A DNA stretch of 64,000 nucleotides from a virus, in the IMG/VR virus record IMGVR_UViG_3300025093_000015, positions 23,711-87,710 of that record. One strand, written 5' to 3'. A program made the translations under genes and the position numbers. Below the pieces are notes generated by a model. That model was not told the origin of the DNA, did not search any database, and was given only the letters and a program-made list of their open reading frames with translations. Of this stretch, positions 15,274 to 51,971 are shown piece after piece. Numbering within the stretch: the stretch's first letter is position 1; each line of letters opens with the position of its first letter.

Positions 15274-15293
15274 AGCAAGTACTAAACAGAATC

Positions 15294-16450: not shown

Positions 16451-16451
16451 A

Positions 16452-16831: not shown

Positions 16832-16833
16832 TT

Positions 16834-17097: not shown

Positions 17098-17098
17098 T

Positions 17099-17314: not shown

Positions 17315-17321
17315 ATCATCT

Positions 17322-17981: not shown

Positions 17982-18020
17982 AAAAAATGCTTTAAACTTT
18001 TTTTATTTAAACTTTTTATA

Positions 18021-18029
18021 TATATTTGC
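18021..18029 (+). promoter_or_regulatory. Early-type promoter -7 box
   Basis: TATATTTGC, identical to the rightward box at 6,837 and matching TAnnTTTG, lies 27 bases before the ATG at 18,057. The upstream sequence is T-rich, with no perfect -33 TTG. Confidence 0.6.
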
Positions 18030-18056
18030 CATTATTAATTAAAAATTAAAATTGCT

Positions 18057-34340: not shown

Positions 34341-36395
34341 ATGTCTTGCAATAAAAAGAAAGATGAAGAAATCATAAAAAAGATAAATATTGAGCAAGCT
34401 TTTGCTGACTTAAAATTTAGAAAAATGAGAGAAGATAGATTTGGTTTATCTTCTTGTTGTAATTTAGATAAGTTAGATAAGTTATCTGCTCAAAAAGAAC
34501 TTTGTGATTGGGATGATAATAAAGTTCCTATATATCTAGATAAAAAATATAAAGATAAAGATGATGACTCAACTTATAAGTGGAACTTTGAAAGTACACC
34601 TATACCTGATTGGGTTTTAAAAGCTTGTACACCGTGTACAGAATATAGTAGTGTAGTTACAACTACAACTGCTTCTATGACACTTACACTTACATCAACT
34701 GTTATAAGCTCTTCATCTGATTATATACCTGGTACAACAAAAGTATATGCTTTAGCTAAATATGATGGAACAGCTGCTAGTACATATTTTACTATAGGTT
34801 ATGGAGTTTTACCTGGTTCAGGAAATTTTTCACTAACTATTTATGGTAATACAAATACTGTAGATCCTAAAAATGGAGCAGATAATTCTGAAGTTTTAAA
34901 AATCATTATTGATGTAAATGGTGATGGTTCAGTAATTAAATCTGTAGATTATTCTGCTGTTGGATGGACTAATCAACTATATACAACTAGTGCAACTATA
35001 GAACCATCAGCAGCTGGCACAATAACTACAGAATGTACATATGGTATAGCTACAGATTGTACTTTTTGTGGAGAAGCTAGAAAGAATGATCCAGACATGT
35101 ATTTCTTTTATGATACTACATCACTAGGACGTCAAGAAGTAATAGATACACATAGTGTTGTTGAAACATGGATAACTGGTTTAAGAGATTTAGGTGCGTT
35201 TAATGGTAAAGTATATCACACATCTGTATTAGGTGAAAGATGGTTAGATTGGGCTGTTGTACCTTTTACTGGACAATTTAATAATGCAGGCTATTGTGGC
35301 GGATCTTATTCTCCAGGTGTAGGACAACCAGGTGTTATAGGACCACAAAATCCTACTTGGGGTAACAACCCTCCTACAGGAGGATATGTAGATGCAGTAA
35401 CTCCTCCAACATCTAATACAAATACAATAGAATGGGGTGTACTAGATTATTTTATTAATGTAAAAGAAATAGATTGGTTTAATGGTGGTAATACAACATC
35501 AACTGTTACATATACAGGAACAGGAGCATCAGGAGATAGTGTAACAAGTCCTGGCCCACCACCTATAGCATCAAGTAAAAGAATATTAGTTGTTGTATTT
35601 GCTGATGAAGCTACATCTCCACAACCTTATCCACAACCTTATCATGTAAATGCAAATACAGTTGCACCAACTTGGACTAATGCTACAGGTGGAACAAATG
35701 GAATTCAAGCAGTACCTACACCATGTTGGAGTGCTGATTATAATGAATTTGTAACTCAACATAATAAATTTTTAAATCAAGGATCAGATTATGAAGCAAA
35801 TTATTTTATATATCCTGCATATCCAAAAAGTGTAGCAGATGCTCATAAATCATTTCCTTTACATGTTGTTGGTGCAATTGATTCTGGTATAAATAATACA
35901 GGTATATTAGCAAGTGCTCCAGCTAACGGTATAGTTTCTTTAGCACAAACTACTAGTGGTACTAATCCATATGTTCAATATAATGTTGGTAGATTAGATC
36001 AATATAATTGGGGTTATAATGTATCTCAACCACCTACAGGATTTACACAAGTTGATTTTGAAACTAATCTTGAAGCATTTTGGGACCCAGGTGATGAAGA
36101 ATGCGTAGGTGATGTAGAGTGTTTAGTAATATATGTAAAAGATACTGAGGGTAATCCAATTGAGTGTTATCCAATTTATATAGATAATAAAGAAGTAGGT
36201 GTAACAGATGAGGATGGTTATTTTACACATAGCATACCTAATGCTAGTGTTGATAAAAAACATTCAATAGATCTATGTCATTGTTTTGATACAACAGGTG
36301 GTTGTAGTCAGCAAAGAATAGATATTACTGTAACACCACAAGAAACAAAAATAAAGTGTACAAAGCAGACAATTGATTGTACACCTGAAGAATAA
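34341..36395 (+). CDS. Tail appendage protein with vWA-like region
   Basis: A 684-aa protein. The N-terminal 95 residues (KMREDRFGLSSCCNLDKLDKLSAQKELCDWDD; YKWNFESTPIPDWVLKACTPC) are the conserved crAss-like anchoring part. From about residue 253, MYFFYDTTSLGRQEVIDTHSVVETWITGL (D258) and later SKRILVVVFADEAT (412-425) look like the first and fourth strands of a vWA (Rossmann) fold, though the metal site is not canonical. The C-terminal 95 residues (LVIYVKDTEGNPIECYPIYIDNKEVGVTDEDGYFTHSI) form a carboxypeptidase-regulatory-like beta domain. It probably forms a fibre or appendage; ligand binding by the vWA-like part is inference. Confidence 0.72.
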   Translation: MSCNKKKDEEIIKKINIEQAFADLKFRKMREDRFGLSSCCNLDKLDKLSAQKELCDWDDNKVPIYLDKKYKDKDDDSTYKWNFESTPIPDWVLKACTPCTEYSSVVTTTTASMTLTLTSTVISSSSDYIPGTTKVYALAKYDGTAASTYFTIGYGVLPGSGNFSLTIYGNTNTVDPKNGADNSEVLKIIIDVNGDGSVIKSVDYSAVGWTNQLYTTSATIEPSAAGTITTECTYGIATDCTFCGEARKNDPDMYFFYDTTSLGRQEVIDTHSVVETWITGLRDLGAFNGKVYHTSVLGERWLDWAVVPFTGQFNNAGYCGGSYSPGVGQPGVIGPQNPTWGNNPPTGGYVDAVTPPTSNTNTIEWGVLDYFINVKEIDWFNGGNTTSTVTYTGTGASGDSVTSPGPPPIASSKRILVVVFADEATSPQPYPQPYHVNANTVAPTWTNATGGTNGIQAVPTPCWSADYNEFVTQHNKFLNQGSDYEANYFIYPAYPKSVADAHKSFPLHVVGAIDSGINNTGILASAPANGIVSLAQTTSGTNPYVQYNVGRLDQYNWGYNVSQPPTGFTQVDFETNLEAFWDPGDEECVGDVECLVIYVKDTEGNPIECYPIYIDNKEVGVTDEDGYFTHSIPNASVDKKHSIDLCHCFDTTGGCSQQRIDITVTPQETKIKCTKQTIDCTPEE

Positions 36396-36424
36396 TAATA
36401 ATAAGACAACTTGGTTGTTTATTA

Positions 36425-36450
36425 AAATTTGTGTATATTATAATGTATAC
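36425..36450 (+). promoter_or_regulatory. Late promoter motif (TATATTAT), copy 5
   Basis: AAATTTGTGTATATTATAATGTATAC; core 36434-36441, 44 bases before the ATG of the 1,194-aa gene. A short hairpin (ACAAC/GTTGT) lies just upstream at about 36,404 and may end the preceding transcript. Confidence 0.75.
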
Positions 36451-36485
36451 ATGTAATAATTTACAGCTACAAAAACAATATATTT

Positions 36486-39400
36486 ATGATACCTAATCAA
36501 TCTAGTAATAACAACGGATGTACAGATAACATGTCATCAAACTGTGTTGTATGGCAAGGACCAGATTTAACATGTATTGAAGTATGTAATGGAGATACAG
36601 TTAGTAATGTAGTTGCTAACATGGCAGAAAAGCTTTGTGAAGTAATTGAAAACTCAGGAGGAGCTATAGATATTACTACTGTAAATCAAAAATGTTTAAT
36701 AGCTGATTATGGTACCGCAGCAACAATACAAGAACTTTTTAATAATATTATTGATAAACTGTGTAACTGTTGTGCAACTAGCCAAACGCCAACAGATCCT
36801 TGTTCATGTGTTATAGAAATTCCTGATTGTTTAAGAAAAGCTGCACGTGATTATGCTAATAACGGAACTTCACCAATATCATTTGCATTAAACAATGATC
36901 CTTCAGTAGGACCTGGTAGAGGTTATGCACATTTTTTAGCATTACAGATTTGTGAAAATATTAGTGCAATTTCATTAATGCAATTGCAAGTTAATAACTT
37001 AGAACAAAGAGTAACATTTATAGAAGATAATTGTTGTAGTCCTTCATCAGCACCATCATCAACTACAGATAAAGTAGTTGCATCTAATTCTACAGGAAAT
37101 AATAGTCCTGTAACATTTGCTACAGCAATAGGTGCATTAGATGATAAAGTTGGATCTATAGATAATACAGTTGGTACAGCTCAACAAATAAATACAGCAG
37201 TAGCATATACACCTGCTCTATCACAAAAAGATAGACTTAGTGGTTCAGGTACAATGGCAGCTACAAGAGGTTGGATAACTACACCAAAGAATATGGCGCA
37301 GTCATTCCAAAACTTGTGGATTACAATGAATGACACAAGAAATGCTGTAGAAAATTTAAATGAAACTGTAGCAAAACCTACATGTGCAGATATTACATTT
37401 GATGTTGTTGGTTCAACAAAGAAAACTACTACAGGAGCTGTATCTGCTCTTGTATTTGATTTTCAAGGTACATCTATTCCAAAAGCATTTAGTGAGTGTA
37501 ATTCAAGAGGAACAAAATTAACTATTACAGATTCTTCTTTAAATACTGTAGTTAAATATGTTGATGTTGGATATTATCAAAATAATCCACCTTATTATCT
37601 TGCTACTTCAGAAATGGGTAATCTTGATTTAGGTAGTAATTATTCTGTTAGAATAGATTTTTGTGCAAGTGATGGTAATACAACATGTCAAGAAATACAA
37701 AATATAACTATAGAAAATGAATTAGGATGTCCTACTTTAACAATAGGAACAGTAACAGCAGATTCTATTCCTTTTACAGTTTCTAATATAACCCTTCCGG
37801 TAAATAAAGGACATATTGTAAATGTTGAGTTGCTTAACAAAGCAGGTTCTTTACAGGATTCAAGATCATTTACGTATCAAGGAAGAGATATTACAGGTAC
37901 ATTTACTAACTTAGTACCTAATACACAATACCAAGTTAAAAATACTTTAACACAAGATGGTAAAGTTGGTACAACAGATTGTCCAGTACAATTAGTTTCA
38001 ACTTCAACTCCTGTATGTTCTACAGTTTTATATACACCAACTAGTTCAGAATGGAGAACTAGTAGAAGTGATTTAGTCACAGGTGGAAATGTTGTAGAAT
38101 TAGCAAGTTATAATAGTGGTGTCTCACAAACAAAATGGGAAGTAGGTTTTGATTCAAGCTATAATCCTATTGTTGTTATGGCATCAGCAACAGGTATAAC
38201 AGGATGGAATCATTCTGGTAAATTTATTAATGATGAGTTAACTACAGAACCATTACAAATTACTGGATTAACAGGTTCTCCAGTATCTCCTGCAGGTATT
38301 ACAAGATCTAATTTAGAAAGTGGGTGGAAGTATATGGGAACAATTACTGATCCAAACAGTCAACTTTATTATGTATATGCTGCAGTAGACACTAATAATA
38401 AATCAATTAAACAAGTTGTTTTTGCTTGTAATTGTAGTGGTATATATTTAGATACTACTCAACCTGTATACTATTCAAGAACAAGTGCAACAACAGATAT
38501 TACACTTAATGTAGTTGGATATACTGCAGGTTCAGAAGAGCACACTTGGGCTATTACTACACAACCTGCACATGGTACATTAGCTTATAAAGCTGGTTCA
38601 CCTACAAACAGTAGTGCAACTTATGTGTACACACAAAATGGTGATTTTATGACATCTGATAGTTTTGTTATTACATTATCAAATGCATGTGGTACAACAA
38701 TAGGTACTAAGTATGTACAAATATTACCTTCACAAAGAATTAAATATACCTCAACTGATGTAATTGTATTTTTTGATACTAATGCTATGACTACTGCAAA
38801 TGCAGCAGATATTAAAAAATCATTTAATGCAATTAGAAGTGGATTTAGTGGTGCTACAAAACCTAATTTCTATTATGTAGCAGTTAATGGAACAGAATCT
38901 GGTGATTATTTAAAACATGTTAAAGGTTGTGTAGAACATGTAGGTGCTTTTAATAGTGCAGGATCATATGGAGCAGCTTTAAGTTATCCAACATCTGGAA
39001 CATGGTACACTGATATAATGTCTAATGGTGCAACGTTACCAAGTTATTGGACAACGACAGGTGCAGAATTTCCACCAGATGTACATATAATATCTTTTGT
39101 TGGTCAAGTAAATGCAAATGGAACTTATGGTAAAGCAAGTTTACCTGGAACTCCAGCATGGGCAACACCGTTGGAACCTACTACAAATAGTGGATCTGGT
39201 ACAGCACAATATCAAGAAGATTATGATGCTATAGTAGATATAACATCATCAGCAGCACCAACAAGTGCATGGGGTATTGCATGTCAAGCACAAACAAGTT
39301 TCCCTTGGGTTTCAGGATCTATACCATTTACTGTAAGTCAAGTTGTTGTTACATTATTAAATGATATAGCTGGTGCAACAGCGTCTGTAGCTTTACAAGC

Positions 39401-40070
39401 ATTTGCAGCACTTCAAGGAGAAAATCTTCTTTCTACACAAGAATATTATGGTGCAGCATTAGGTTTAGAAAGATATAGAAATCATGGAGCAATAGGAACA
39501 GGTTTAGATTTAACAGCATATTTACTTTCAGGTGTAGCATCTGTAAATATTCCATATAGTGTAACAACTAATGGTGCTGCTAATACAATGGTAGGTTTAA
39601 AAGATGTTTCACCTTCAAATTATTTTAATGCTGTTCATGCTTATATTGAAAATGGAACTGATTTAGATCTTTCAACTAATCCTATGATAACAACATATTT
39701 TAGAGGTATGTTTGGATTACTAACATCAGGATCAACAGGAGAGCCAAGTTCTGCAGGTGGTCAACGTATGGGAAGCACAGCTACTTATGCAGTACAAATT
39801 AGTGGTAGTACTGATGCAGATAAAATATTAAGTGCTTGTACACAAGCTAAGACTGCTAGTAATTGTATAAATATATATAACTCAACAGGTACACAATTTG
39901 ATACAACTGTAAGAGCATATACAACTTTATCAGGATTAGTAAATGAGCAATCAGAATATGAATTAGAAAATGGAAAATTTTATGCATTGTGCCCAGGTGG
40001 AACAGGTGTAAATGTTGCTAGATATAGCACAACTTCACCACATTGGAATACGGTAAGCACGTGCCCTTAA
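36486..40070 (+). CDS. Large tail fibre-like protein with Fn3 and vWA-like domains
   Basis: A 1,194-aa protein. N-terminal anchor: CVVWQGPDLTCIEVCNGDTVSNVVANMAEKLCEV, a pattern I know from crAss-like fibre N-termini. Then a Cys-rich segment, a helical stalk, and fibronectin-III-like beta repeats at about 415-505 (CPTLTIGTVTADSIPFTV; TFTNLVPNTQYQVKNTL). A cadherin-like repeat follows around 660-740. From residue 757, DVIVFFDTNAMTTANAADIK (D764) and DVHIISFVGQ (about 865) again suggest a vWA-like fold. Probably a receptor-contacting appendage. Thr/Ser/Asn content is high throughout, as usual for fibres. Confidence 0.72.
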   Translation: MIPNQSSNNNGCTDNMSSNCVVWQGPDLTCIEVCNGDTVSNVVANMAEKLCEVIENSGGAIDITTVNQKCLIADYGTAATIQELFNNIIDKLCNCCATSQTPTDPCSCVIEIPDCLRKAARDYANNGTSPISFALNNDPSVGPGRGYAHFLALQICENISAISLMQLQVNNLEQRVTFIEDNCCSPSSAPSSTTDKVVASNSTGNNSPVTFATAIGALDDKVGSIDNTVGTAQQINTAVAYTPALSQKDRLSGSGTMAATRGWITTPKNMAQSFQNLWITMNDTRNAVENLNETVAKPTCADITFDVVGSTKKTTTGAVSALVFDFQGTSIPKAFSECNSRGTKLTITDSSLNTVVKYVDVGYYQNNPPYYLATSEMGNLDLGSNYSVRIDFCASDGNTTCQEIQNITIENELGCPTLTIGTVTADSIPFTVSNITLPVNKGHIVNVELLNKAGSLQDSRSFTYQGRDITGTFTNLVPNTQYQVKNTLTQDGKVGTTDCPVQLVSTSTPVCSTVLYTPTSSEWRTSRSDLVTGGNVVELASYNSGVSQTKWEVGFDSSYNPIVVMASATGITGWNHSGKFINDELTTEPLQITGLTGSPVSPAGITRSNLESGWKYMGTITDPNSQLYYVYAAVDTNNKSIKQVVFACNCSGIYLDTTQPVYYSRTSATTDITLNVVGYTAGSEEHTWAITTQPAHGTLAYKAGSPTNSSATYVYTQNGDFMTSDSFVITLSNACGTTIGTKYVQILPSQRIKYTSTDVIVFFDTNAMTTANAADIKKSFNAIRSGFSGATKPNFYYVAVNGTESGDYLKHVKGCVEHVGAFNSAGSYGAALSYPTSGTWYTDIMSNGATLPSYWTTTGAEFPPDVHIISFVGQVNANGTYGKASLPGTPAWATPLEPTTNSGSGTAQYQEDYDAIVDITSSAAPTSAWGIACQAQTSFPWVSGSIPFTVSQVVVTLLNDIAGATASVALQAFAALQGENLLSTQEYYGAALGLERYRNHGAIGTGLDLTAYLLSGVASVNIPYSVTTNGAANTMVGLKDVSPSNYFNAVHAYIENGTDLDLSTNPMITTYFRGMFGLLTSGSTGEPSSAGGQRMGSTATYAVQISGSTDADKILSACTQAKTASNCINIYNSTGTQFDTTVRAYTTLSGLVNEQSEYELENGKFYALCPGGTGVNVARYSTTSPHWNTVSTCP

Positions 40071-40088
40071 TAATTAAAAAAATAAATT

Positions 40089-40646
40089 ATGAGTTGTAGT
40101 AGTTGTAAAAGTGGATCAACAAAGTCATCACCATGTGCATGTAAAGATCATGGACTAGTAACTCCTTGTAGTTATACAAATTGTCAAAGAAAAAATGATA
40201 CTGAAACATGTGAAGATATACAATGTTCAGCATGTGTAGGATGGTGTCAAAATAGTTTTTGTGTAACTAATGCTGCTAACCAAACTTTTTGTGTTAATAA
40301 AGGAGAAAAACTTGACTTTATACTACAGAAACTAGTATTATTTGTTGCTAATCCTGGATGTTGGAATAGTAATATTGCACATTTATTTGTAGATACAATT
40401 ACTAGTACAAGCATTAAATTAATGTGGGATGGTATTCCAACTGGAACAACTGCAATAAATGTATATTATGCTACCGCATCTGGTGCTTATATATTAGCAA
40501 ATACTGCAGGACCATTACCAGCTGGAACAGTAGAATTTGATGTAACAGGTTTATCATCTAATACAGCATATAAATTTAAAGTTGCAGCAACTACTGGCGC
40601 AGCAACTTGTGATTCAGTAGAAGTATATGCAAACACAATAGCATAA
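40089..40646 (+). CDS. Cys-rich appendage protein with Fn3-like domain
   Basis: A 185-aa protein. The N-terminus is Cys-rich (MSCSSCKSGSTKSSPCACKD; EDIQCSACVGWCQNSFCVTN), followed by a helix (GEKLDFILQKLVLFVANPGC) and a C-terminal fibronectin-III-like domain (VDTITSTSIKLMWDGIPTGTTAINVYYA; VTGLSSNTAYKFKVAAT). The N-terminal CssC...pC.CkdhgL.TpC.Yt.C pattern is shared with small crAss-like tail proteins. Disulfides are unlikely in the cytoplasm, so zinc binding or late oxidation may apply. Last gene before a strong terminator. Confidence 0.78.
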   Translation: MSCSSCKSGSTKSSPCACKDHGLVTPCSYTNCQRKNDTETCEDIQCSACVGWCQNSFCVTNAANQTFCVNKGEKLDFILQKLVLFVANPGCWNSNIAHLFVDTITSTSIKLMWDGIPTGTTAINVYYATASGAYILANTAGPLPAGTVEFDVTGLSSNTAYKFKVAATTGAATCDSVEVYANTIA

Positions 40647-40689
40647 CAAAAGTAGAGAAAGTTTGTTGGTTTTAACTCTGCAATTGTTT

Positions 40690-40737
40690 GGAAACCCTGG
40701 AGAAATCTAGGGTTTCCTCTTATATGATTTTTTTTTG
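40690..40737 (+). terminator. Intrinsic terminator after appendage block
   Basis: A perfect nine-pair stem, GGAAACCCT (40690-40698) with AGGGTTTCC (40709-40717), extended by two inner pairs, then an AT-rich stretch ending in ten Ts. Confidence 0.88.
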
Positions 40738-40745
40738 TATCTTGC
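40730..40745 (+). promoter_or_regulatory. Promoter-like box TATCTTGC
   Basis: TTTTTTTGTATCTTGC gives TATCTTGC, one base from the early TAnnTTTGC box, 31 bases before the metallophosphoesterase ATG. If real, this late-region gene is expressed under early or host control. Confidence 0.45.
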
Positions 40746-40776
40746 AAACAATTTTAAAAATAACTTATTAACTATT

Positions 40777-41958
40777 ATGGATTCATTATTAGAAAAAATC
40801 AAAGCATCATTTAAATGGAAAAAAACATCAGACTACTGTGCTGATAAGTTAGGTATGACTGTAGAAGACTATGACGTACTTAAGGACATGGTAAAAGCTA
40901 GACTTTTACAAGAATCAGGATCATTATCCTATGAATACAACTTAGAAAAAGGAGAAGCAAAGATGGAAGCTATATCATCATCTGAACCAAAATCTCCTGA
41001 AGAAATAATTAAAATATTAAATATAGACACTACACAATGGAAGTTGTCTAGTTATTGGAATAAGCAAATGGGTGATCATTGGCGTGTATCAGCAATGGTT
41101 ACAAAACTAAAAGATAAAGAAATTGATAATGTTGTTGAATTATTAAAAGACTTTAAACCAAAGAAACATAAATTAGTTAAAAGAATTAAAACTCCAGGTA
41201 AAGTAAAAACAGCTGGAGTTTTGTCTTTACAGGACATACACTTTGGTAAAGAAGGAAATGAAACTATTGATAAAGACTTTGAGGAGACTATCATTGATCT
41301 TGCAGAAAGAGCAAGTAAGTCACATCACTTAGAAAAATTATATTATGTCATAGGAGGTGATTTAATTAACATGGATACATGGAGTGGTACTACTACATCA
41401 GGAACACCATTAGACAACTGTATGACATCTACAGAGGCTTATATGCAAGCATTTGATGCATTGCAATGGAGCATTAATTATTTAAAACAATATTGTGATA
41501 CATTACAAATTGTATATATTCCTGGTAATCATGATAGACTTTCTTCTTTTCATTTAGCTCATGCATTATCTAAGTGTTTTAAAGATAAAAAAATATTATG
41601 GGATGTTGTTTATCTTGAGAGAAAGGTATTTGTATATGGGGATAACTTTTTTGCATTTGAACATGGAGATGTAAATACTAAAAATTCTTTAATGTTATAC
41701 TCTATGGAATATCCAAGAGAATGGGGTAAGACATTATATAGAACATTATACACAGGTCATTATCATCATAAGAAAAAGATTGAGTACATAACTCAACATG
41801 AAAATACAGGTTTTACATTAAAGATTTTACCAAGTTTATCAAAGACAGATTATTATCATTATCATAATAAATTTGTAGGATCAAGAAGATCTGGAGTATT
41901 ATCACTTCATACCCCAGATAAAGGTGAGATATGTGAACTAACATATTCACCTGAATAA
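40777..41958 (+). CDS. Calcineurin-like metallophosphoesterase
   Basis: A 393-aa protein (start ATG 40777, MDSLLEKIKASFKWKK). The N-terminal 140 residues are helical and of unknown fold. The C-terminal part holds all metallophosphoesterase motifs: SLQDIHFG (D153-x-H155), IGGDLIN (G194-D195), PGNHD (249-253), FEHGD (H296) and TGHYHH (GHxH 327-330). Such enzymes cut phosphodiesters in DNA (Mre11/SbcD-like) or nucleotides. It is flanked by a terminator upstream and a late promoter motif downstream, so it is a separate unit within the tail region. A DNA-processing or anti-defence role is possible; substrate unknown. Confidence 0.9.
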   Translation: MDSLLEKIKASFKWKKTSDYCADKLGMTVEDYDVLKDMVKARLLQESGSLSYEYNLEKGEAKMEAISSSEPKSPEEIIKILNIDTTQWKLSSYWNKQMGDHWRVSAMVTKLKDKEIDNVVELLKDFKPKKHKLVKRIKTPGKVKTAGVLSLQDIHFGKEGNETIDKDFEETIIDLAERASKSHHLEKLYYVIGGDLINMDTWSGTTTSGTPLDNCMTSTEAYMQAFDALQWSINYLKQYCDTLQIVYIPGNHDRLSSFHLAHALSKCFKDKKILWDVVYLERKVFVYGDNFFAFEHGDVNTKNSLMLYSMEYPREWGKTLYRTLYTGHYHHKKKIEYITQHENTGFTLKILPSLSKTDYYHYHNKFVGSRRSGVLSLHTPDKGEICELTYSPE

Positions 41959-41974
41959 ACTTGAATAAATCACC

Positions 41975-41996
41975 TTTTTTTTGTAAATTATAATGT
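41975..41996 (+). promoter_or_regulatory. Late promoter motif variant (TAAATTAT), copy 6
   Basis: TTTTTTTTGTAAATTATAATGT; core 41984-41991 differs by one base from TATATTAT, and TAATGTAT after it matches copy 5. An ATG inside the motif (41993) is unlikely as a start; the next in-frame ATG, 42008, is preferred. Confidence 0.65.
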
Positions 41997-42007
41997 ATGG
42001 TAATATT

Positions 42008-42529
42008 ATGATAAATAATTTTAAAAAACCTAATTTAAATGCACCAAGATATAGAGAGAAAGTCTTGGGGTTATTAAATGCGGAATTAATAAATGAATTT
42101 AAAGACAAAAATCCAATATATTCAAAAATAGATAATAACAAATTAAAAAATATAATTAAATTATTTAATGGAAGAATATGGGAAGAAGTTATAAAAAATA
42201 GAGATGGTGTAGAGTTACCTGATTCATTAGGTTACATATTTATAGGAACCTGCCCTGCAGCTAAAACTGTAAATACAAACTATGCACTGTCAAAACAATA
42301 TGGTAAAGTTTTGCAGAATAAAAACTGGGAAACTGATGGTAATGTAGCAAAAATATTTTACACAAACTACTCTACTAAATACCGTTTTAAAAATAGAGAG
42401 CTTTGGCAATTTACAGCCATCAGACAATTTAAAAGATCTGTTGCAAGTGAATATCCTAAAAAATGGACAAAGTATATTAAAATGGAAAATAAAAAAAGAG
42501 TGGCTGATATGTATAAAAAAAACAGTTAG
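42008..42529 (+). CDS. Conserved crAss-like structural protein
   Basis: A 173-aa protein from ATG 42008 (MINNFKKPNLNAPRYREKVL). The promoter motif lies directly upstream, which excludes the earlier ATG at 41993. Characteristic stretches are FNGRIWEEVIKNRDGVELPDSLGYIFIGTC and KIFYTNYSTKYRFKNRELWQF; I recognise this combination (fN..iwe.vi.nRDGveLPe.lGyifIGtC...ifYTNy..kYRFk.relW.F) from a conserved gene preceding ring proteins in crAss-like phages. Several Tyr, Trp and Lys residues; no catalytic motif. Probably a tail or head-completion component. Confidence 0.78.
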   Translation: MINNFKKPNLNAPRYREKVLGLLNAELINEFKDKNPIYSKIDNNKLKNIIKLFNGRIWEEVIKNRDGVELPDSLGYIFIGTCPAAKTVNTNYALSKQYGKVLQNKNWETDGNVAKIFYTNYSTKYRFKNRELWQFTAIRQFKRSVASEYPKKWTKYIKMENKKRVADMYKKNS

Positions 42530-42531
42530 TT

Positions 42532-43203
42532 ATGACAACAATAGGAGAAGTAGTTTCAAGAGTAAGACAATCTATCAAAGCAGAGGTACAAGATGCATTT
42601 ATGACTGATAGATATATCTATAGTCTTATATTAAAAAATGCACAACTGTTTATGAGAAGACAAGATCATGCTAATAAGCTTATGAAGTTTAATAGTGTGT
42701 GGCAAGCACTTCCCTATATTGAATTAATTGAAGTTGATAAAGTAGAAGCACAGTGTAGTGGAATTCAAAGTGGATGTACTATAAAACGTACAAAAGAAAA
42801 ACTACCAACATTTATGGAAGGTTACTGGGGACCATTAATTAGAACTGTTAGTTCTATTGACGGTTCAATTGAATTACAACCAACTAATCCTGGTACTTAT
42901 GCTTCTATGACAAAGACTACATCTTTTAAGTACAATAAAACAAAATACTTTTGGTGGCTAAATGATTATCTATATTTCCCAAATATTGAATGGGATGCAG
43001 TAAAAGTAGAAGGTATTTTTGAAGGAGATATATCTGGATATAATTGTGATACAGAAGATGATTGTACCCCAAGATACATGCAACAATTATTTATTCCTGA
43101 ATTTTTGTTTGCAGAAATTGAAACACAAGTGTTAAATCAATTGATGAATACTATGAAGGTTCCTTCTGAAGATTCAGATAATAAAATAAACATAAATAGA
43201 TAA
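42532..43203 (+). CDS. Ring / tail-tube-like structural protein
   Basis: A 223-aa protein: IGEVVSRVRQSIKAEVQDAFMTDRYIYSLILKNAQLFMRRQD, IELIEVDKVEAQCSGIQSGCTIKRTKEKLPTFMEGYWGPLIRTV, KYFWWLNDYLYFPNIEWDAVKVEGIF. This is close to a crAss-like structural protein that I recall as one of the ring or collar proteins between portal adaptor and tail hub. It would form a ring in the neck. One base of overlap with the next gene (TAATGG) shows coupled translation. Confidence 0.82.
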   Translation: MTTIGEVVSRVRQSIKAEVQDAFMTDRYIYSLILKNAQLFMRRQDHANKLMKFNSVWQALPYIELIEVDKVEAQCSGIQSGCTIKRTKEKLPTFMEGYWGPLIRTVSSIDGSIELQPTNPGTYASMTKTTSFKYNKTKYFWWLNDYLYFPNIEWDAVKVEGIFEGDISGYNCDTEDDCTPRYMQQLFIPEFLFAEIETQVLNQLMNTMKVPSEDSDNKININR

Positions 43204-44126
43204 TGGCTATATCACATAAATACAGAACCTTTGATCAATTGTTAGAAGATGTAACTGTAGATTTTTCTACATATGCACTAGAAGGTATGATTGAACCTCA
43301 GCAATTAATTAAAGTTGCTACAAGAGTTAATTATGATTTAGGTTTAAGAATTAATAGAACAAAAGAAACTGTAGTAGAAATAGAACACGGTAAAGCAAAA
43401 TTACCTACAGATTTTATGTATTTAAATTATGCTTTTTGTTGTAATTCATATACAATGTCTAGCAAGATGCCTGCTGGTACTACAGTAGATACAACATATA
43501 CTAAGTATGTTCCAGATCCAGGAGATCCTAAACAATGTGTAACACCAACAGATTGTAAAGATGTTTGTGTAGTACAAACATGTCCTACTACTACAACAGA
43601 TGGAAGAGGTCCAGCTAAAACAACATATAAAAATGAACATATAGTAGTTCAGTTTGTAGGTGCTGATCAGTATAGACATTATACAGATTATCATCCTTTA
43701 AGATTTAGCACATCAAATAAAGTTCAGTGTGATTGTCCTAATGTAAATATACAGTCTAGATACGTAGCAGAAATTAAAGATAATTACATACTAACTAATT
43801 TTACAAATGGTAATGTATACATTAGCTATCAAGGTGCTATGGAAGATGATGATGGTAATCTTTTAGTTTTAGATCATCCTTACTGTAATGAGTACTATGA
43901 GTATGCATTAAAAGAAAGAATATTAGAAAATATGGTTTTTGCTGGTGAGAATGTTTCTCAGCAGTTATCATATATTAAAGGTCAATTGAGAGCATCAAGA
44001 AACAATGCTTTAGGTTTTGTTAATACACCTGATTTTGAAGAAATGAGAAAAATATGGGAAGTTAACAGAAGAGCTCAATATCATAATTACTATGATATGT
44101 TTAAAAGTCACCCAACATTAGGATAA
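43203..44126 (+). CDS. Ring / tail adaptor protein (gp4-like)
   Basis: A 307-aa protein. The N-terminus (YRTFDQLLEDVTVDFSTYALEGMIEPQQLIKVATRVNYDLG) and the C-terminal helix (YYEYALKERILENMVFAGENVSQQL) fit the crAss-like tail accessory protein next to the hub. A Cys/Thr-rich insertion (PKQCVTPTDCKDVCVVQTCPTTTT) lies around residues 117-140. Together with the genes at 31,417 and 42,532 it completes the three ring-type genes expected between portal and tail hub. Confidence 0.8.
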   Translation: MAISHKYRTFDQLLEDVTVDFSTYALEGMIEPQQLIKVATRVNYDLGLRINRTKETVVEIEHGKAKLPTDFMYLNYAFCCNSYTMSSKMPAGTTVDTTYTKYVPDPGDPKQCVTPTDCKDVCVVQTCPTTTTDGRGPAKTTYKNEHIVVQFVGADQYRHYTDYHPLRFSTSNKVQCDCPNVNIQSRYVAEIKDNYILTNFTNGNVYISYQGAMEDDDGNLLVLDHPYCNEYYEYALKERILENMVFAGENVSQQLSYIKGQLRASRNNALGFVNTPDFEEMRKIWEVNRRAQYHNYYDMFKSHPTLG

Positions 44127-44138
44127 ATATAAATAGTA

Positions 44139-47100
44139 ATGGCTAAACAGCAATCTCCAAAATTACAAAATACTAGTTCTACGGATACTAAGATTCCTAT
44201 TAAAGGAATGACTAAGGATCTAAATACATCTTTAGTGGGTAAAGAAAACTGGACTCATGCTAGAAATGCTATTAATAATTCTAAGGATGGTGATGTTGGA
44301 ACTTTAGGTAATGAACCAGGAAATAAAGTTTGTAGTTCAGCACCATATACTATTATTGGTGCTATTCATTTATATGGAGATAAGTGGGTTTTATATTCAA
44401 CAAATAATGAGCAAAGTGAAATAGGTAAATGGGATGATAGTGAATGTAAGTATGAACCTATTGTAAATGATTATACTTGTTTTCAATGTCAAAATGATGA
44501 TGGTTTAGATAGCACTAGTTTTACACCTTGTTTAAATTTTGATACGCAACATTTAATTACAGGAGCGGCAAAAGAAAACTTTGATTGTACATGGCAAGTA
44601 TATTGGGATGATGGTAAAAATCCATCACGTACACTTAATATAGATAAAGTACCTTACATACAAAATGTAATTTCTGAAATAGGTGCTGAATGTACAGTTT
44701 ATGAAGATACAGCATGTTTAGATTGTGAAGCTCTTAGACTTGCACCATTAGTAGATATTCCATGTATAAAACTTTCTAAATCAGATGACGGAGGACAATT
44801 AAGAAATGGAACATACCAAGCATTTATTGCTTATACAATTAATGATCAAGTTGTTGGTGATTACTATGGTATGTCAAATCTTCAACCATTATATGATCAT
44901 GAAGATTTACTATCTGGTTTAGAAATTGAAATATCAAATCTAGATAAAGGTTTTGAATATTTTAAACTTGTAATTCTTAGTCATAACCAAGGAGAAATAC
45001 AAGCTAAAGAAATAGGTATATATAGCACAGAACAATCTACTATTAGTATTGATTATATAAATCAAGCATTAAAAGCTGTTCCTATTAATACATTACCATT
45101 AACTACACCTGCTTTTGAAAAGTCAGATAAAATGTATGTGGTTAATGATTATTTAATTAGACAAGGGCCAACAGAAAGATATGATTTTAATTATCAACCA
45201 ATAGCAAATAGAATACATACGCATTGGACAGTTACACAATTTGATTCTGATTATTATAAAAAAGGTGGTAATAAACCTACATTTATGAGAGATGAGGTTT
45301 ATTCATTCTTTATTAGATTTGTTTATAATACAGGTGAAAAATCTAGATCATATCATATACCAGGTAGACCGCTTTCATGGAATGGTTGGCAAGCTCCAGA
45401 TGGAACTATTATTAGTGAACTAGATCAATTAACAGGTGATGTAAATAACTTATCAGCACAAGCATCAGCATTAGGACTTTGTGATACTAATGATAGTGAT
45501 TATGCATTTGAAATATATAATACTGCACAAAATCAAACAGATCAATTTTGGCAAAATCCAAATAACTTAACAGAAGGTCCAATAACAGATGACTGTGGTA
45601 CTGTAATTGCAGAAGGTCATATGGCTTATTGGCAATCAACAGAAAGGTATCCAAATGATCCTGTTAGATATAATTCAGATATAGGTGATGATAGATATGA
45701 TTTATGTGGTAAACCTATAAGACATCATAAATTTCCAGATGAAACATTTAGTGGTTCTGGACCAGGAGGATTTTTAGACAGATCTTCTAATAATGGACAA
45801 TCAATAAATGTACTTGGTGTTAAGTTTGATGGTATTAGAATGCCAAGGTATAGTGAAAGCTTTGGACAAATATGTTCTCCAGATAATGGCACACCAACAG
45901 GACCACCTATTCCAGGAATTATAGGTTATGAAATACTTGTAGGATCAAGGGAGGGTAACAAGTCTATTATAGCAAAAGGTTTATCTAGGAATATGAGGCA
46001 GTACAATCTTCCTGCTGGACAAAATGCTGCAGACAGTACAGCAACAATAGGTTATATTCCTAACTATCCTTTTAATAGTGCTCAAGCAGATCCATATTTA
46101 TCAGGAGATCCAGGTTTTAGTTTTGGTTATAATAATCCCACAAATATTACACAATATCCACAAGCTAATACTGCAGCAAATGTATTTACATTTCATTCAC
46201 CTGAAACATCTTTCAATAAACCATTCTTATCACCATTTGAAATTAAAACATATGGTTTAACAACAGGTAGATCTGTAGGTAGATTTAGACCATCTGAAAA
46301 TCACCCACAACATAAACTACTTAGAAACTTAGCAATGTGGGTTGGTATTATAGTTGGTGTAGGTTATGCTATTGGTCAGATGCGTGGTAAAAGAATGACA
46401 AAAACCAGAAGACCACAAGGTTATAGTATGGGCTTGCAACAAAATGCAAGATCTGGTGGTTCTATGACAAATACAATTAATGGACCAAATGGTGGTGGAG
46501 GTGGTGCTGTAGGTACAGGTGCATGGTCAATAACTACAATTTCTAGTAATATTAATACTGACCAAGGTGGTGCACGTGCTGGTGCTCCTGCTGCTGCTGG
46601 TCAAGGTTTAACATTAATGAACCCTGATCAAACTATTAATCAAACAGAAGCTGCACAAAATTTACCATTAGGGCCAAATGATTTAAGAGAAACAACACTT
46701 ACAACAGCTACTATTATCGGTGCACCAAAAATAGCAAAAAAGATTGCTTACGATAATACAATGAGATTCCAGGATAATTTAAAAACAAATGCATTACGTA
46801 GAGGTTATATAGGTAGAATGCAAGAAGAATCTTATGAAGGTGAAAGATTTACAGAAGCTCCTGGTTTAGCTCAAGTTTTATTTGGTATATTTAATTTTAT
46901 GCAATTAACTGCTGAAGGTGGTCAGCATATTATTGACATGATCTATGAACTTGTTAGTTTGCAAGATTATGCTTGGAAGTATAGTGGTCATGGACTTTAT
47001 CTAAATACAAATGCACCTTTAGCAGGACAGGTAAGTAGAATGCTAGTTGATAAAGGAAGATATATTGGACCTTCAATTCAAAACTTAACAGCTAATATTA

Positions 47101-50100
47101 GAATTAATAACTTACAAAGACCAAGTACAGTTGCTGTATCAGCAATAGCTCCAGCCGGTGCTGCAGGATTTGCAACACCATCACAAGCACAAGATGATTC
47201 AAGATTTATTATTGGTACGTTTGGTGGATGGTGGAATCCTTCACAATGGGTAGGTGCTAGTATTGCAGCACACTATACAGCCCTTAAAGTAGCATTTAAA
47301 AATCAATATGGACAGTTAGATCAAATTAAACAAATTCCAATTGGTTGTATACATTACTTTGAACAAGAAAGTGTTCAAAAAGACCCAAATGGTAATTACT
47401 ATGATGATATAAGTAAAGATGGAGTACCTATAGAAGATGCACGTTTTCAAACTAAAATATTATATGGAGGAGACTGTTATATAAATAGATATACAGAAAA
47501 AGTTATTATGCCTTTCTTCTGGGATTTTTTAGATGGACAACCAGATATGTTTCCGTATGACTATAGATTGAGAGCTAATGTACCACGCCCTATATATTGG
47601 ATGACAACAGAAAAATATGATCTTTCTCAATTAGTAAGGTATATTGTAGATTTAACTTGGCTTACAGGTGGTGGTAATAATACTAATATGACTAATATTA
47701 CTCCTAATAATTTACATTTTTTAGATAGACCTAATAATGATTTAGTCAATGATACATTAAGTGGTAATGGTAGTCAAACTAATGCTGGTGGACCTGTAGG
47801 AGTAGCAAATCCTAATCAAGGTGCTGATGGTATAACACAGGATAAAGGAGGTAGGTCTATATTTCATATTAAAAATGGATATATGTATACCCATTGTAAT
47901 GGTGTACAAGATTTCTTTGTTGAGTCTTCACTTAACATGGGTCTAAGAGACTATGAAGATACTGATGATAAAAGACATTATGATTTTGCAGAATATACAG
48001 ATGTAGAAGCAATGTTTCATTCTAAAATTATTAGAAAAGATAATTTCTATAAGTATGATTTCTCATTAAGTAAAACTAGATTTAATACTCAGCTTATATC
48101 TTTTGGACAAATACAAGATAGAGATTATGATCCTATTACTGCAGAGAAGTGTTTTACACATTTCCCTAAGAGATTAATATATTCTCTCCAAGCTCAAAAA
48201 GAAGCTAAGAAAGATTTCTGGAGGGTATTCTTACCAATGAATTACAAAGACTTTAAGGATAAAGTTAATGTAATCAAACCAATGTCAAAAAGTGGTGCAG
48301 TAGTTACATTCCCTAATTTAGCTCCAGCATTATTCCAAGGTGTAGATCAGTTACAAACAGATTTAGGAACTAAACTTACTATTGGTGACGGAGGACTATT
48401 TAGTCAGCCAATGCAAAATATTGTTAATGCTGATGAAGCTCATGAATATGGATCATGTGAAAGTTCTAGAAGTGTCATAAATACACCTAACGGATTATAC
48501 TATATATCACAAGCACAAGGTAAAATATTTAATTATGCAGGTAGAGGTTTAGAGAATATTGCAAATAATGGTATGAAACAATGGTTTAATAAATATTTAC
48601 CATCTGTACTATTATCACAATTTCCTGAACTAGAAGACTGCAGTGGATGGATAGATAACCCAGTGGCAGGTGTAGGATGTCAATCAGTATATGATCCTAA
48701 CTATGATATAGTTTATTTCTGTAAAAAAGATTATCAAGCATTAAATCCAGAATGTATTGACTTTGATCCATGTGAAGGTTTTGTATTTAATCAAACAGCA
48801 TGTGGAACTGCACAACCAGTACCTTGTTGTCCAGATGGATACACATTTGATATATCAAGTAATGAATGTATTAGAACTACAATTATAGAACCTATAGTAG
48901 ATCAAGAATTAGGTAATGTAGATATTGTATTTGCAATTGATTCTTCAAACTCAGTTGATGGTAATAATAATGTTGGTAATATGCAAAACTTCTTAAGAGG
49001 TTTTATTGATGGTATGTCACCAGAATTAAGTAGTGGTCAAGCAAGAATAGGTTTATGTCATTTTGGAGCTGGTAGAAATACAAGAGATCCATTATATAAT
49101 GGTCAGCAAAATTTATGTAATAATCCAAATACAGCAGATGAAATGTTTGAAGGAGCTAATCAAGTAACTTTAACAGATAATCAAGCTGTATTAGAAAATT
49201 GGATTGGATCACCATCAGGAGCTACTGCACCATTTACACCAGATTTCACTTCTGTATATGGTGCTTCATCTAGAAATATTGTAGGTATAGGAAGAGATTT
49301 CCCATATGGAACTGATATTGCTGCTGGTGTTTGGTGTGGTCAAAATTTATTATATATGGATGGATTTAGCAGAAATGTTAAAAAAATCTTAATTACAATA
49401 TTTGATGGACCACAAGCTACTGACTTACAAACAAATGGGCAACCTGCTATGTGTAGTCCAGGATTTTATACATCTGCAATATATACTTCAGGTGCTGTTA
49501 CTGGAACAGATGTTTATCAAAATAATACTGTTACACCAATAACTCCTGATATTACTTTTGGTAGAGAACCTTTAAATACTTTTTCTGCAGCAGGAGATTT
49601 AGCAACTACATGGTTCCAAAATAATATAGTATCAAATCCACAATATACTGCAGCACCATTCAATCAAGATTTTTATGCTGTTGTATTACCTCCTGGTGCA
49701 GCAGGTGATTTTGTTTCATATTCACAATTATGGTCTTCAGCACCAGGTTTTGCATATCAAGGTGATTTTGCAGTACAACAAGATATTATAGATATTGTAG
49801 ATGCAATTACAGCAGCAATAACACCTGATCCAGTATTTTCTTGCCCTCCTGGTTGTACTTTATTTACAGATTCTAATGGAGATCCAATGTGTTCTTGTGT
49901 TGAAACAACACCAGTAACATATAATGATGTAACAACTCCTATTGATTTACATGATGAAACATATTTTAAAGATGTATCATGGACAGTAAGTTATGATCCA
50001 AAAGCTAAAGCTTGGATTTCATTCCATGATTGGCATCCTGATTTAACAATACCTAGTTTAAATCATTTCTTTACAACTAAGAATTTTGTAGATACAACTA

Positions 50101-51971
50101 TTCCAGAATGTCCTCCAGGATTTACATGGGATCCAGTACAACAAATATGTTGTCAACAATATCCAGGAGAATTCCCATCAGAAATTATTGTTGATGAGGT
50201 ACCAGTAATAACTAACTTAGAAACTGTTGGTTGTAAATTAGATATTGTTATTGGTGTAGATAATAGTGGTTCTATGAATACAAATGGTCTTTGGAATCCT
50301 GCAATGATTTTTATAGATACTTTTGTAGGTGAGTTTGCACAATCTATGGCGGATGGTGATGTTCAAATTGGAATAGTTGGTTGGGGAAATCAAATGCTAA
50401 ATGTTACACCAAACATGAGTGGTAATTTATCAACAAATAATTTAGTTGGTACACAATGTAATTTAAATGCTGGAAATAGTAGCCCATCTATGTCTAATTA
50501 TACAGGTAGTACAAATTGGGGAACTATGTTAAGTAATAATCTTTTAGGAAATAGTATTTCACCTAATGGAGGAGGAACATTTTTACAAACAGCATTTAAT
50601 ACAGTACAAGCTCAATTATCAAATGTAAGACAATCAACACTTGGTGATAGAACAGATGAACAATCATATAAAAGAATTTCAATTATAATTACAGATGGTG
50701 CTCCATCTGCAGGACAAGCTCCTACTAATAATCAAGGAGGTCCTTTTGCACCAAATATGAATTCTAATTATCCAAGTTTAAACTATGGTTATGCTCCTAA
50801 TGCTGCAGAAAGTAGTGGTCAATTAACTGTAGCTTCTGAAACTTATTGTATTTATACAGCAAATACTGCACCTACTGGACAAGCATTAGCAAACATAACT
50901 GGAGTATTTAATGATTTAACTAGTGCACCATTTCAAGAAATACCATTATTACCTGCTGATAATAGAGATTTTGCAGAAGATCTTGCAAATAATATATGCT
51001 CTATTACTGTATGTAGTTGTCCACCTGACTATCAAAGAATTACAACTGAGTTTTCATCTCCAGCTTCACCACCATATGCACTATTAGATAATGATGCAGA
51101 TTGTTCAGCAGGTGGTGGACTTAAGAATGGAGTATGTAGAAAAATAGAATGTACTTGTCCTACAGACCGTCTACCTAGTACATATGTACCAAATACTTTA
51201 ACTCAAACTGGTCAATGTCCAGATGATATTATGCCAAACGGTATTGCTTTATATTATAATCCTGATACTGGAGTAGGTGATCCAACATGGCTAAATGTAA
51301 ATCCTCCTATTTGTAGATTTGAGTTTTTATGTTGCTTAGAACCTAATTTTGAAAAAGGTGGTGTATGGAAACATAATGATAGATGTGATTTATATACTAA
51401 TTACTATGAGAAAGATTATGGATGGGAAGTTGAACTTATTGAATCTGTTGGACAAACTGTAAATACTGTAAGAAGTATTGAGTATCAACTAGAGTCTTAT
51501 ATTTATAGAGGTAATTTAGAAGGTGATTGTGGTGATAGATTCCATGATCTTGATTATAATTTTGATCATGCTATACTTCACAATACAGAACAAGTTTCAG
51601 GATTATTAACATTTAATTTAAGTCCTAAAAATAATGCGCCATTAATTACACAGTTCCCACAGATTACTGCAAATGATATTCAAATACTATACAGTAAAGA
51701 AGAACAAAAGTATAGGTTTAATCAGTTCTGGGATGTTACTGCTGACAGAGGAGAATTTAATCCTAATGTAAGTGAACCAATATTTATTACTCAATTAAAT
51801 GGTTATATTAGAGATTTAAATCAAAATAATATTAATTTAGCAAAACCATCTTTCCAACGTAAGAAGTTTAGACATTATTGGAATGCTGTAGTTCTAAGAA
51901 AGAATGAATCAGGTAATAGAAAAATGTTATTGAAATTAAAGAATAGTAAAATTAATGTATCATTTAGATAA
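44139..51971 (+). CDS. Tail stabilisation/hub protein with two vWA domains
   Basis: A 2,610-aa protein. The N-terminus (TKIPIKGMTKDLNTSLVGKENWTHARNAINNSKDGDVGTLGNEPGN) is the hallmark of the crAss-like tail stabilisation protein (P22 gp10-like). A hydrophobic stretch at about 731-748 (LAMWVGIIVGVGYAIG) is followed by basic residues, resembling a membrane segment. Two canonical vWA domains are inserted in the C-terminal half: NVDIVFAIDSSNSVDG with DxSxS at 1601-1605, and KLDIVIGVDNSGSM with DxSxS at 2041-2045. Both have complete first metal-site motifs. It is far longer than the usual hub. Its stop overlaps the next start. vWA domains would bind ligands through Mg, perhaps at the host surface. 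Confidence 0.85.
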   Translation: MAKQQSPKLQNTSSTDTKIPIKGMTKDLNTSLVGKENWTHARNAINNSKDGDVGTLGNEPGNKVCSSAPYTIIGAIHLYGDKWVLYSTNNEQSEIGKWDDSECKYEPIVNDYTCFQCQNDDGLDSTSFTPCLNFDTQHLITGAAKENFDCTWQVYWDDGKNPSRTLNIDKVPYIQNVISEIGAECTVYEDTACLDCEALRLAPLVDIPCIKLSKSDDGGQLRNGTYQAFIAYTINDQVVGDYYGMSNLQPLYDHEDLLSGLEIEISNLDKGFEYFKLVILSHNQGEIQAKEIGIYSTEQSTISIDYINQALKAVPINTLPLTTPAFEKSDKMYVVNDYLIRQGPTERYDFNYQPIANRIHTHWTVTQFDSDYYKKGGNKPTFMRDEVYSFFIRFVYNTGEKSRSYHIPGRPLSWNGWQAPDGTIISELDQLTGDVNNLSAQASALGLCDTNDSDYAFEIYNTAQNQTDQFWQNPNNLTEGPITDDCGTVIAEGHMAYWQSTERYPNDPVRYNSDIGDDRYDLCGKPIRHHKFPDETFSGSGPGGFLDRSSNNGQSINVLGVKFDGIRMPRYSESFGQICSPDNGTPTGPPIPGIIGYEILVGSREGNKSIIAKGLSRNMRQYNLPAGQNAADSTATIGYIPNYPFNSAQADPYLSGDPGFSFGYNNPTNITQYPQANTAANVFTFHSPETSFNKPFLSPFEIKTYGLTTGRSVGRFRPSENHPQHKLLRNLAMWVGIIVGVGYAIGQMRGKRMTKTRRPQGYSMGLQQNARSGGSMTNTINGPNGGGGGAVGTGAWSITTISSNINTDQGGARAGAPAAAGQGLTLMNPDQTINQTEAAQNLPLGPNDLRETTLTTATIIGAPKIAKKIAYDNTMRFQDNLKTNALRRGYIGRMQEESYEGERFTEAPGLAQVLFGIFNFMQLTAEGGQHIIDMIYELVSLQDYAWKYSGHGLYLNTNAPLAGQVSRMLVDKGRYIGPSIQNLTANIRINNLQRPSTVAVSAIAPAGAAGFATPSQAQDDSRFIIGTFGGWWNPSQWVGASIAAHYTALKVAFKNQYGQLDQIKQIPIGCIHYFEQESVQKDPNGNYYDDISKDGVPIEDARFQTKILYGGDCYINRYTEKVIMPFFWDFLDGQPDMFPYDYRLRANVPRPIYWMTTEKYDLSQLVRYIVDLTWLTGGGNNTNMTNITPNNLHFLDRPNNDLVNDTLSGNGSQTNAGGPVGVANPNQGADGITQDKGGRSIFHIKNGYMYTHCNGVQDFFVESSLNMGLRDYEDTDDKRHYDFAEYTDVEAMFHSKIIRKDNFYKYDFSLSKTRFNTQLISFGQIQDRDYDPITAEKCFTHFPKRLIYSLQAQKEAKKDFWRVFLPMNYKDFKDKVNVIKPMSKSGAVVTFPNLAPALFQGVDQLQTDLGTKLTIGDGGLFSQPMQNIVNADEAHEYGSCESSRSVINTPNGLYYISQAQGKIFNYAGRGLENIANNGMKQWFNKYLPSVLLSQFPELEDCSGWIDNPVAGVGCQSVYDPNYDIVYFCKKDYQALNPECIDFDPCEGFVFNQTACGTAQPVPCCPDGYTFDISSNECIRTTIIEPIVDQELGNVDIVFAIDSSNSVDGNNNVGNMQNFLRGFIDGMSPELSSGQARIGLCHFGAGRNTRDPLYNGQQNLCNNPNTADEMFEGANQVTLTDNQAVLENWIGSPSGATAPFTPDFTSVYGASSRNIVGIGRDFPYGTDIAAGVWCGQNLLYMDGFSRNVKKILITIFDGPQATDLQTNGQPAMCSPGFYTSAIYTSGAVTGTDVYQNNTVTPITPDITFGREPLNTFSAAGDLATTWFQNNIVSNPQYTAAPFNQDFYAVVLPPGAAGDFVSYSQLWSSAPGFAYQGDFAVQQDIIDIVDAITAAITPDPVFSCPPGCTLFTDSNGDPMCSCVETTPVTYNDVTTPIDLHDETYFKDVSWTVSYDPKAKAWISFHDWHPDLTIPSLNHFFTTKNFVDTTIPECPPGFTWDPVQQICCQQYPGEFPSEIIVDEVPVITNLETVGCKLDIVIGVDNSGSMNTNGLWNPAMIFIDTFVGEFAQSMADGDVQIGIVGWGNQMLNVTPNMSGNLSTNNLVGTQCNLNAGNSSPSMSNYTGSTNWGTMLSNNLLGNSISPNGGGTFLQTAFNTVQAQLSNVRQSTLGDRTDEQSYKRISIIITDGAPSAGQAPTNNQGGPFAPNMNSNYPSLNYGYAPNAAESSGQLTVASETYCIYTANTAPTGQALANITGVFNDLTSAPFQEIPLLPADNRDFAEDLANNICSITVCSCPPDYQRITTEFSSPASPPYALLDNDADCSAGGGLKNGVCRKIECTCPTDRLPSTYVPNTLTQTGQCPDDIMPNGIALYYNPDTGVGDPTWLNVNPPICRFEFLCCLEPNFEKGGVWKHNDRCDLYTNYYEKDYGWEVELIESVGQTVNTVRSIEYQLESYIYRGNLEGDCGDRFHDLDYNFDHAILHNTEQVSGLLTFNLSPKNNAPLITQFPQITANDIQILYSKEEQKYRFNQFWDVTADRGEFNPNVSEPIFITQLNGYIRDLNQNNINLAKPSFQRKKFRHYWNAVVLRKNESGNRKMLLKLKNSKINVSFR

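Follow-up and report, generated by a model that had tools for sequence, protein, structure and literature searches.

The gate function of the Crassvirales muzzle is known from crAss001 only, in which the muzzle is a hexameric gate at the end of the tail that must change its conformation to open, and crAss muzzles vary in length through insertions in their crass and IG2 regions (PMC10172136). How Crassvirales recognise their hosts is poorly understood, and the muzzle has so far been treated as a conserved gate. As a scaffold with two cassette sites for adhesion domains, carbohydrate-binding-like domains or a protease, it would offer a specific location at which the host specificity of a major order of phages could be read, tested and predicted. 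Here, we describe such a muzzle and two proteins encoded upstream of it, all three with domains of the von Willebrand factor A (vWA) fold, the latter two according to predicted structures.

The DNA analysed, referred to as the window, is a stretch of 64,000 nt from an 87.7-kb virus record in IMG/VR, and the phage is an uncultured crAss-like phage. The window contains a crAss-like structural block, that is, terminase, portal, Crass_capsid major capsid protein (MCP), ring proteins R3/R4, R2 and R1, and a muzzle of 2610 aa. The first-pass annotation had marked three open reading frames (34341-36395, 36486-40070 and 44139-51971) and two motifs, D1601 (DSSNS) and D2041 (DNSGS), all of which are found in place. 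The relatives used for comparison (loci numbered with L) are all metagenomic, and the homologues of A and B were collected from IMG/VR. The features discussed below are listed in window coordinates.

28621..30255, + strand: Crassvirus major capsid protein (PF23898, 3.2e-34)
31417..32154, + strand: ring protein R3/R4 homologue (hhalign against crAss001 gp34, P 6.4e-8)
34341..36395, + strand: protein A, 684 aa, with conserved N-terminal segment, vWA-type domain and CnaB-like domain (ORF, family anatomy, model)
35082..36110, + strand: predicted vWA-type domain of A, residues 248-590, with D258-T-T260-S261-L, GERWLDW at 298-304 and F-A-D422-E423 (AlphaFold, VIA-align, conservation)
36117..36392, + strand: C-terminal CnaB/SpyCatcher-like beta domain of A, residues 593-684 (Foldseek probability 0.97-0.99 to SpyCatcher; low local pLDDT)
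36486..40070, + strand: protein B, 1194 aa, with conserved N-terminal motif SSNCVxWQGPD, beta-rich body, vWA-type domain and C-terminal beta domain (ORF, alignment)
36486..36845, + strand: putative N-terminal docking segment of B, common to several neighbouring proteins of relatives (iterative HMM, alignment)
38742..39758, + strand: predicted vWA-type domain of B, residues 753-1091, with degenerate metal site (DTNAM, beta-4 Asp absent) (AlphaFold, VIA-align, conservation)
39765..40067, + strand: C-terminal beta domain of B, residues 1094-1194, found in separate genes of relatives (model; HMM matches in proteins of 348-382 aa)
42532..43203, + strand: ring protein 2 (R2) homologue (hhalign against crAss001 gp40, P 1.9e-7)
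43203..44126, + strand: ring protein 1 (R1) (PF24228, 1.4e-13; hhalign against gp43)
44139..51971, + strand: muzzle, 2610 aa, the tail-tip gate of Crassvirales (PF25731 crAss_MUZ, 8.7e-23; PHROG 37948, 2.6e-49; aligns to crAss001 gp44)
48744..48908, + strand: Cys-rich linker preceding vWA1, residues 1536-1590, where cassette site 1 begins, at about gp44 residue 1206 (muzzle alignment, insert table)
48915..49652, + strand: vWA1, residues 1593-1838, with MIDAS residues D1601-S1603-S1605 and D1756 (PF00092 in full muzzle, HMM envelope, MIDAS counts)
49719..49943, + strand: Cys-rich linker following vWA1, residues 1861-1935 (alignment)
50094..50228, + strand: Cys-rich (EGF-like) linker preceding vWA2, residues 1986-2030, where cassette site 2 begins, at about gp44 residue 1235 (alignment; cEGF match in one member)
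50235..50939, + strand: vWA2, residues 2033-2267, with MIDAS residues D2041-S2043-S2045, T2147 and D2186 (PF00092/PF13519, MIDAS 41/41, dN/dS)
51024..51323, + strand: Cys-rich linker following vWA2, residues 2296-2395 (alignment)

Apart from these, a DNA-repair-exonuclease-type gene (PHROG 704) is present amid the structural genes at 40735-41958, and a tRNA-Arg (TCT) gene is located at 13381-13455 on the - strand. Downstream of the muzzle, a protein of 2688 aa (51971-60037) carries three LysM domains and a weak YkuD (L,D-transpeptidase) match, and is possibly a cargo or wall-acting protein.

The 2610-aa protein had been taken for a tail hub with two vWA domains. Both domains are borne out, and the protein is identified instead as the muzzle, since its match to the PF25731 profile reaches 80.8 bits against a cut-off of 27 and extends over three stretches. 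The context is also that of Crassvirales, with R1 and R2 directly upstream and the MCP gene earlier in the same block (28621). The best-covering GenBank match to the muzzle, with 25% identity, is in PP438436 (Leptolyngbya phage Lbo-JY46, our L131), a cyanophage for which every listed gene is annotated as hypothetical, which indicates that the crAss-type tail reaches a cyanobacterial host. Sequence searches of the PDB with the muzzle, vWA1 and vWA2 gave nothing useful. In L075 (9962-16396), the muzzle is present as two ORFs of 1376 and 762 aa with the break near site 1 and a vWA-like domain in the second, and either the gene is truly split or the sequence contains an error.

Both muzzle regions exceed the Pfam cut-offs for VWA and VWA_2 when the full protein is scanned (PF00092, 6.1e-10, 40 bits against 23.8; PF13519, 32 against 27), and vWA2 in isolation is still above that for PF00092, with 25.8 bits. 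Among the relatives whose muzzle modules were tested, 10 of 17 have a VWA match at E 0.01. As had been proposed for this pair, the metal site is retained: in vWA2 the D, S and S of the DxSxS motif are each found in 41 of 41 relatives, the T in 40 and the final D again in all 41, and in vWA1 the corresponding counts are 11, 12 and 11 of 13 for D, S and S and 13 of 13 for the final D, the site being lost in L007 and L045.

Are these domains then a fixed part of the muzzle? The insert table covers 78 muzzles, of which 26 have no insert, 31 have a vWA domain at site 2 only and 11 at both sites, while the remaining 10 carry other modules at one or both sites. The latter comprise CBM-like 'NPGFE' modules, a reprolysin-type metalloprotease (L079) and modules of unassigned family, and the modules are flanked by Cys-rich linkers, which are EGF-like, with a cEGF match, in one member. 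The muzzle body of L004 is 82% identical to that of the window but the site-1 modules are unrelated (31%), so the exchange has been recent in places; conversely, L004 and the distant L126 share 52% identity in the body and 56% in the site-1 module. L056, with a body 75% identical to that of the window, has different modules at both sites. Two domains have even changed site in the tree, since the site-2 vWA of L073 falls within the site-1 clade and the site-1 vWA of L056 within the site-2 clade. Judged from these alignments, the two muzzle positions are exchangeable cassettes.

The vWA2 domain is also the least conserved part of the muzzle relative to the nearest relatives, with 91% (L001) and 82% (L002) identity against 99.5-100% for the last 215 residues. 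Its dN/dS is 0.65-0.96 compared with at most 0.31 in the body in the L001 and L002 comparisons, values that come from few close pairs and in which dS is raised in vWA2 as well (0.19 against L002), so recombination may account for part of the divergence.

Several cassettes deserve mention in their own right. Site 2 of the L079 muzzle (ORF 9971-18481) holds a reprolysin/M12B-like zinc peptidase module with HEMGHVVGAYH and a Met-turn-like LMSYC, which is above the Pfam cut-off for both Reprolysin_5 and Reprolysin_3; a predicted protease on a phage tail tip merits separate study. The CBM-like modules ('NPGFE...', with a weak CBM_4_9 match in L079) are found at site 1 in L015 and L079 and at site 2 in L056, L127 and L008. 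Modules with no clear Pfam family occupy site 1 in L004 and L126 and site 2 in L017 and L018 and in L014 and L046, and include one of a 'KTVHILLAADN' type, one with a weak Laminin_G_3 match and an unknown one of 400 aa.

The replacement of vWA cassettes by CBM-like, metalloprotease and other modules is what would be expected of host-specificity determinants. We therefore favour, with a probability of about 0.62, the reading that the vWA domains and the other modules are exchangeable host-attachment modules of a crAss-like phage, whose location and exchange are read from the sequences and whose binding we infer. The Cys-rich, EGF-like linkers flanking the two insertion sites would serve as stalks, the muzzle and the appendages formed by A and B would display the binding heads, the vWA1 and vWA2 heads would grip the host via a bound divalent cation, and the swapping of modules would change specificity. 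Such a role would imply modules that are exposed on the surface, bind ligands and contribute to host range. In gp44, sites 1 and 2 fall near residues 1206 and 1235, in the C-terminal part and past the distal 'crass' domain (453-1012), which counts against assuming exposure at the very tip.

The same position could suggest more than anchoring. The inserts are in the part of the chain that follows the IG2/crass domain and in which the propeller continues; in vWA I-domains, as is established for integrins, the binding of a ligand is coupled to a change in conformation; and the muzzle is a gate whose opening requires that its conformation change (PMC10172136). The muzzle vWAs might thus act as an integrin-like trigger, in which the metal-dependent binding of a ligand signals the gate to open. 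However, the 26 muzzles without inserts must open too, and non-vWA cassettes are present at the same sites, so that such a trigger seems improbable. We regard as equally improbable the fuller version, in which exchangeable, metal-dependent muzzle vWAs would bind the host and directly trigger the gate, with first contact made by fibres bearing re-engineered vWA domains.

We now turn from the putative host-attachment modules of the muzzle to A and B, which, from gene position and domain make-up only, are probably appendage, fibre-like proteins. Scans of both with Pfam, PHROG and NCBIfam models found no family, and the Pfam vWA models matched none of 31 A homologues and none of 30 B homologues. 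AlphaFold models were built from homologue alignments, with pLDDT 73 and pTM 0.72 for A and pLDDT 79 and pTM 0.85 for B. In these models, the strands that had drawn attention at first (FFYDTTSLG and ILVVVFADE at about 255-263 and 415-423 of A; VIVFFDTNAM and HIISFVG at about 756-765 and 866-872 of B) form beta-1 and beta-4 of a vWA-type alternating alpha/beta fold. After realignment with VIA-align, about 49 of the 50 rows for A are vWA domains (Z 6.8-7.9, with 144-177 residues aligned in most rows), as are essentially all top rows for B (Z 6.3-7.5, the best to vWF A1). The chains matched include vWF A1-A3, integrin I and beta-I, Sec23/24, Ku, TFIIH p44 and PilB.

Another possibility is that A and B contain other Rossmann-like alpha/beta domains and that true vWA domains are confined to the muzzle. 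The lack of any vWA profile match in the 61 homologues would fit, as would the middling Z scores, all below 8, the raw Foldseek E values of about 0.01-0.02, which are not significant alone, and the short-chain dehydrogenases that also occur in the raw list for B. Against it, nearly all of the top 50 rows are vWA domains after structural realignment of both models, and the strand order, the DxT after beta-1 and, in A, the Asp after beta-4 match vWA topology. It is because the match lists are so uniformly vWA that the fold is assigned, and the Rossmann-like alternative appears very improbable. The prediction that the appendage regions fold as vWA domains is thus upheld by the models (best Z 7.9 for A and 7.5 for B), the vWA-type fold of A and B is highly probable, and the window would have four vWA-fold domains in three genes, the muzzle pair by Pfam and the others by AlphaFold.

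On this basis, A and B would display a second, very divergent vWA-type family, with a rebuilt acidic site and a CnaB-like domain in A and a degraded site in B. In A, the D of DxT is conserved in 27 of 31 homologues, the T/S in 27, the D of FADE in all 31 and the E in 30, with L or M as the fifth residue of DxSxS, and the domain has further residues that are invariant and peculiar to it (H, GERWLDW, YH); this looks like a rebuilt but conserved acidic site. The A-type domain occurs in tandem in the longer proteins of L100, L102, L103, L107 and L108 and in two adjacent proteins of L115; in the upstream tandem copies that were aligned (L100, L102, L103 and L108), the beta-1 Asp is replaced by Lys or Arg. 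In L057, L059, L071, L077 and L078, which are relatives without muzzle inserts, the N-terminal segment of A is found again at the C-terminus of other large proteins. For A, the matches in BFVD were all weak, and the best (E 0.0095) was to a protein of 1189 aa from Virus NIOZ-UU157.

Most homologues of B have N or G in place of the beta-4 Asp, and DTNAM is found where DxSxS is expected. About 25 relatives of B, here called Bc, have the same N-terminal half with SSNCVxWQGPD and a canonical MIDAS vWA tip (DYTGSM...TDxLPGG), which in the window-type B is replaced by an extra beta region and the divergent vWA. None of the loci examined has both tip types, a pattern consistent with a single gene whose binding heads alternate. 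In each genome, the motif SSNCVxWQGPDxxCIxLCxGDT is found at the head of several different proteins encoded near each other (window 36486-36845; e.g., L060, L062 and L077), and the segment is likely a common docking segment for appendages. The N-terminal parts of A and B that were compared gave no match to crAss001 structural proteins in hhalign and were rejected as homologues of its hub or fibres.

It should be noted that vWA domains also act as structural or assembly parts. The chief rival to host attachment is therefore a purely structural role, in which the domains would join muzzle subunits, fibres and hub within the virion and make no contact with the host. The complex-assembly vWAs of Sec23/24, Ku, TFIIH and INTS14 are among the structural matches of A and B, the metal site of B is degenerate as in purely structural vWAs, and a muzzle vWA and a vWA-type tip (B or Bc) are usually present in the same genomes. 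However, this co-occurrence is phylogenetically structured, and B is also found beside non-vWA cassettes (L014, L015, L017, L018, L046 and L079). Close relatives with a muzzle body of 82% identity lack the modules or have unrelated folds in their place, a change that would not be tolerated at an assembly interface. Such replacement among close relatives agrees poorly with a purely structural role, which is unlikely, and host attachment is preferred.

How are the four domains related to each other? Profile-profile comparison and a maximum-likelihood tree were carried out with 42 bacterial vWA domains as the control set, which are unrelated and were reached via one short Myxococcota match from a scan of genome contigs. 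The muzzle vWAs all fall into one clade apart from the bacterial vWAs (100/99), split by site save for the two jumps mentioned above, and vWA1 and vWA2 match each other at 2.8e-19 and the bacterial vWAs at about 1e-11 each. The domains of A and B align end to end only in the global mode of hhalign (P 2.3e-6), with a score of 33.9, while the highest score among 60 block shuffles was 18.8. Neither of them matched vWA1, vWA2, Bc or the bacterial vWAs in profile-profile comparison (P at least 0.03), and the canonical tip of Bc groups with bacterial vWAs, outside the muzzle clade.

The first-pass annotation had suggested that one adhesion module was duplicated within the tail, the four domains being closest to each other and two of them having lost the metal site. 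At the sequence level, the duplication is real, and since the links in the tree and the profiles are within pairs only, it consists of two pairs, vWA1/vWA2 and A/B; with Bc included, there are two or three vWA lineages. A single fourfold duplication was rejected from the profile comparison, the shuffles and the tree, and A and B are no closer to the muzzle vWAs than to unrelated vWAs. The loss of the metal site holds for B, where the beta-4 Asp is gone, and was rejected for A, in which both acidic positions are conserved (27/31 and 31/31) and the Ser is changed. Read from its residues, the site is intact twice (vWA1 and vWA2), apparently rebuilt once (A) and degenerate once (B).

Searches by tblastn of 50,697 GenBank phages gave no match for A, B, vWA1 or vWA2, nor did the N-terminal part of B match GenBank phages. 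Together with the lack of Pfam, PHROGs and NCBIfam entries for the A and B families, this indicates that current annotation misses these modules. The literature search, which did not cover subscription papers, found none linking von Willebrand domains with Crassvirales, and both the muzzle sites with vWA, CBM and protease cassettes and the vWA-type families of A and B appear to be new to the collections and papers searched.

Among the closest known systems is crAss001 gp44 (1371 aa), a tail-tip gate of the same family (PF25731) with the gene order R2-(IHF)-R1-muzzle. However, gp44 carries neither a vWA domain nor any other cassette at the corresponding positions (about residues 1206 and 1235), both of which are outside the insertion regions named previously (PMC10172136). 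The same phage encodes gp52, annotated as 'von Willebrand factor type A-like', but this is a stand-alone protein of 255 aa among nucleotide-metabolism genes on the other strand and is not structural; it was rejected as the source of the vWAs for its different genomic context. The Ig-like/BACON adhesins of gut crAss-like phages (PMC13370021) are likewise modular adhesion domains, but of another fold and in other proteins, and that work names neither vWA nor the muzzle. Gram-positive pilus-tip adhesins, such as RrgA and PilB of S. sanguinis, combine vWA and CnaB-like domains on an extended surface structure, a combination similar to that predicted in A, and PilB is one of the top structural matches for both A and B. 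A and B, however, are phage proteins with no sequence similarity to these adhesins in family scans, with an altered site in A and a degenerate one in B. Finally, VWA domains are reported in the tail fibres of extracellular contractile injection systems (PMC12923769), particles derived from phage tails on which they would likewise serve for binding, but those systems are bacterial and their domains are on fibres, while here they are in the gate protein of a podovirus. On the host-attachment reading, the tail tip of podoviruses would be a further place for a fold that is familiar mainly from integrins and pilus adhesins.
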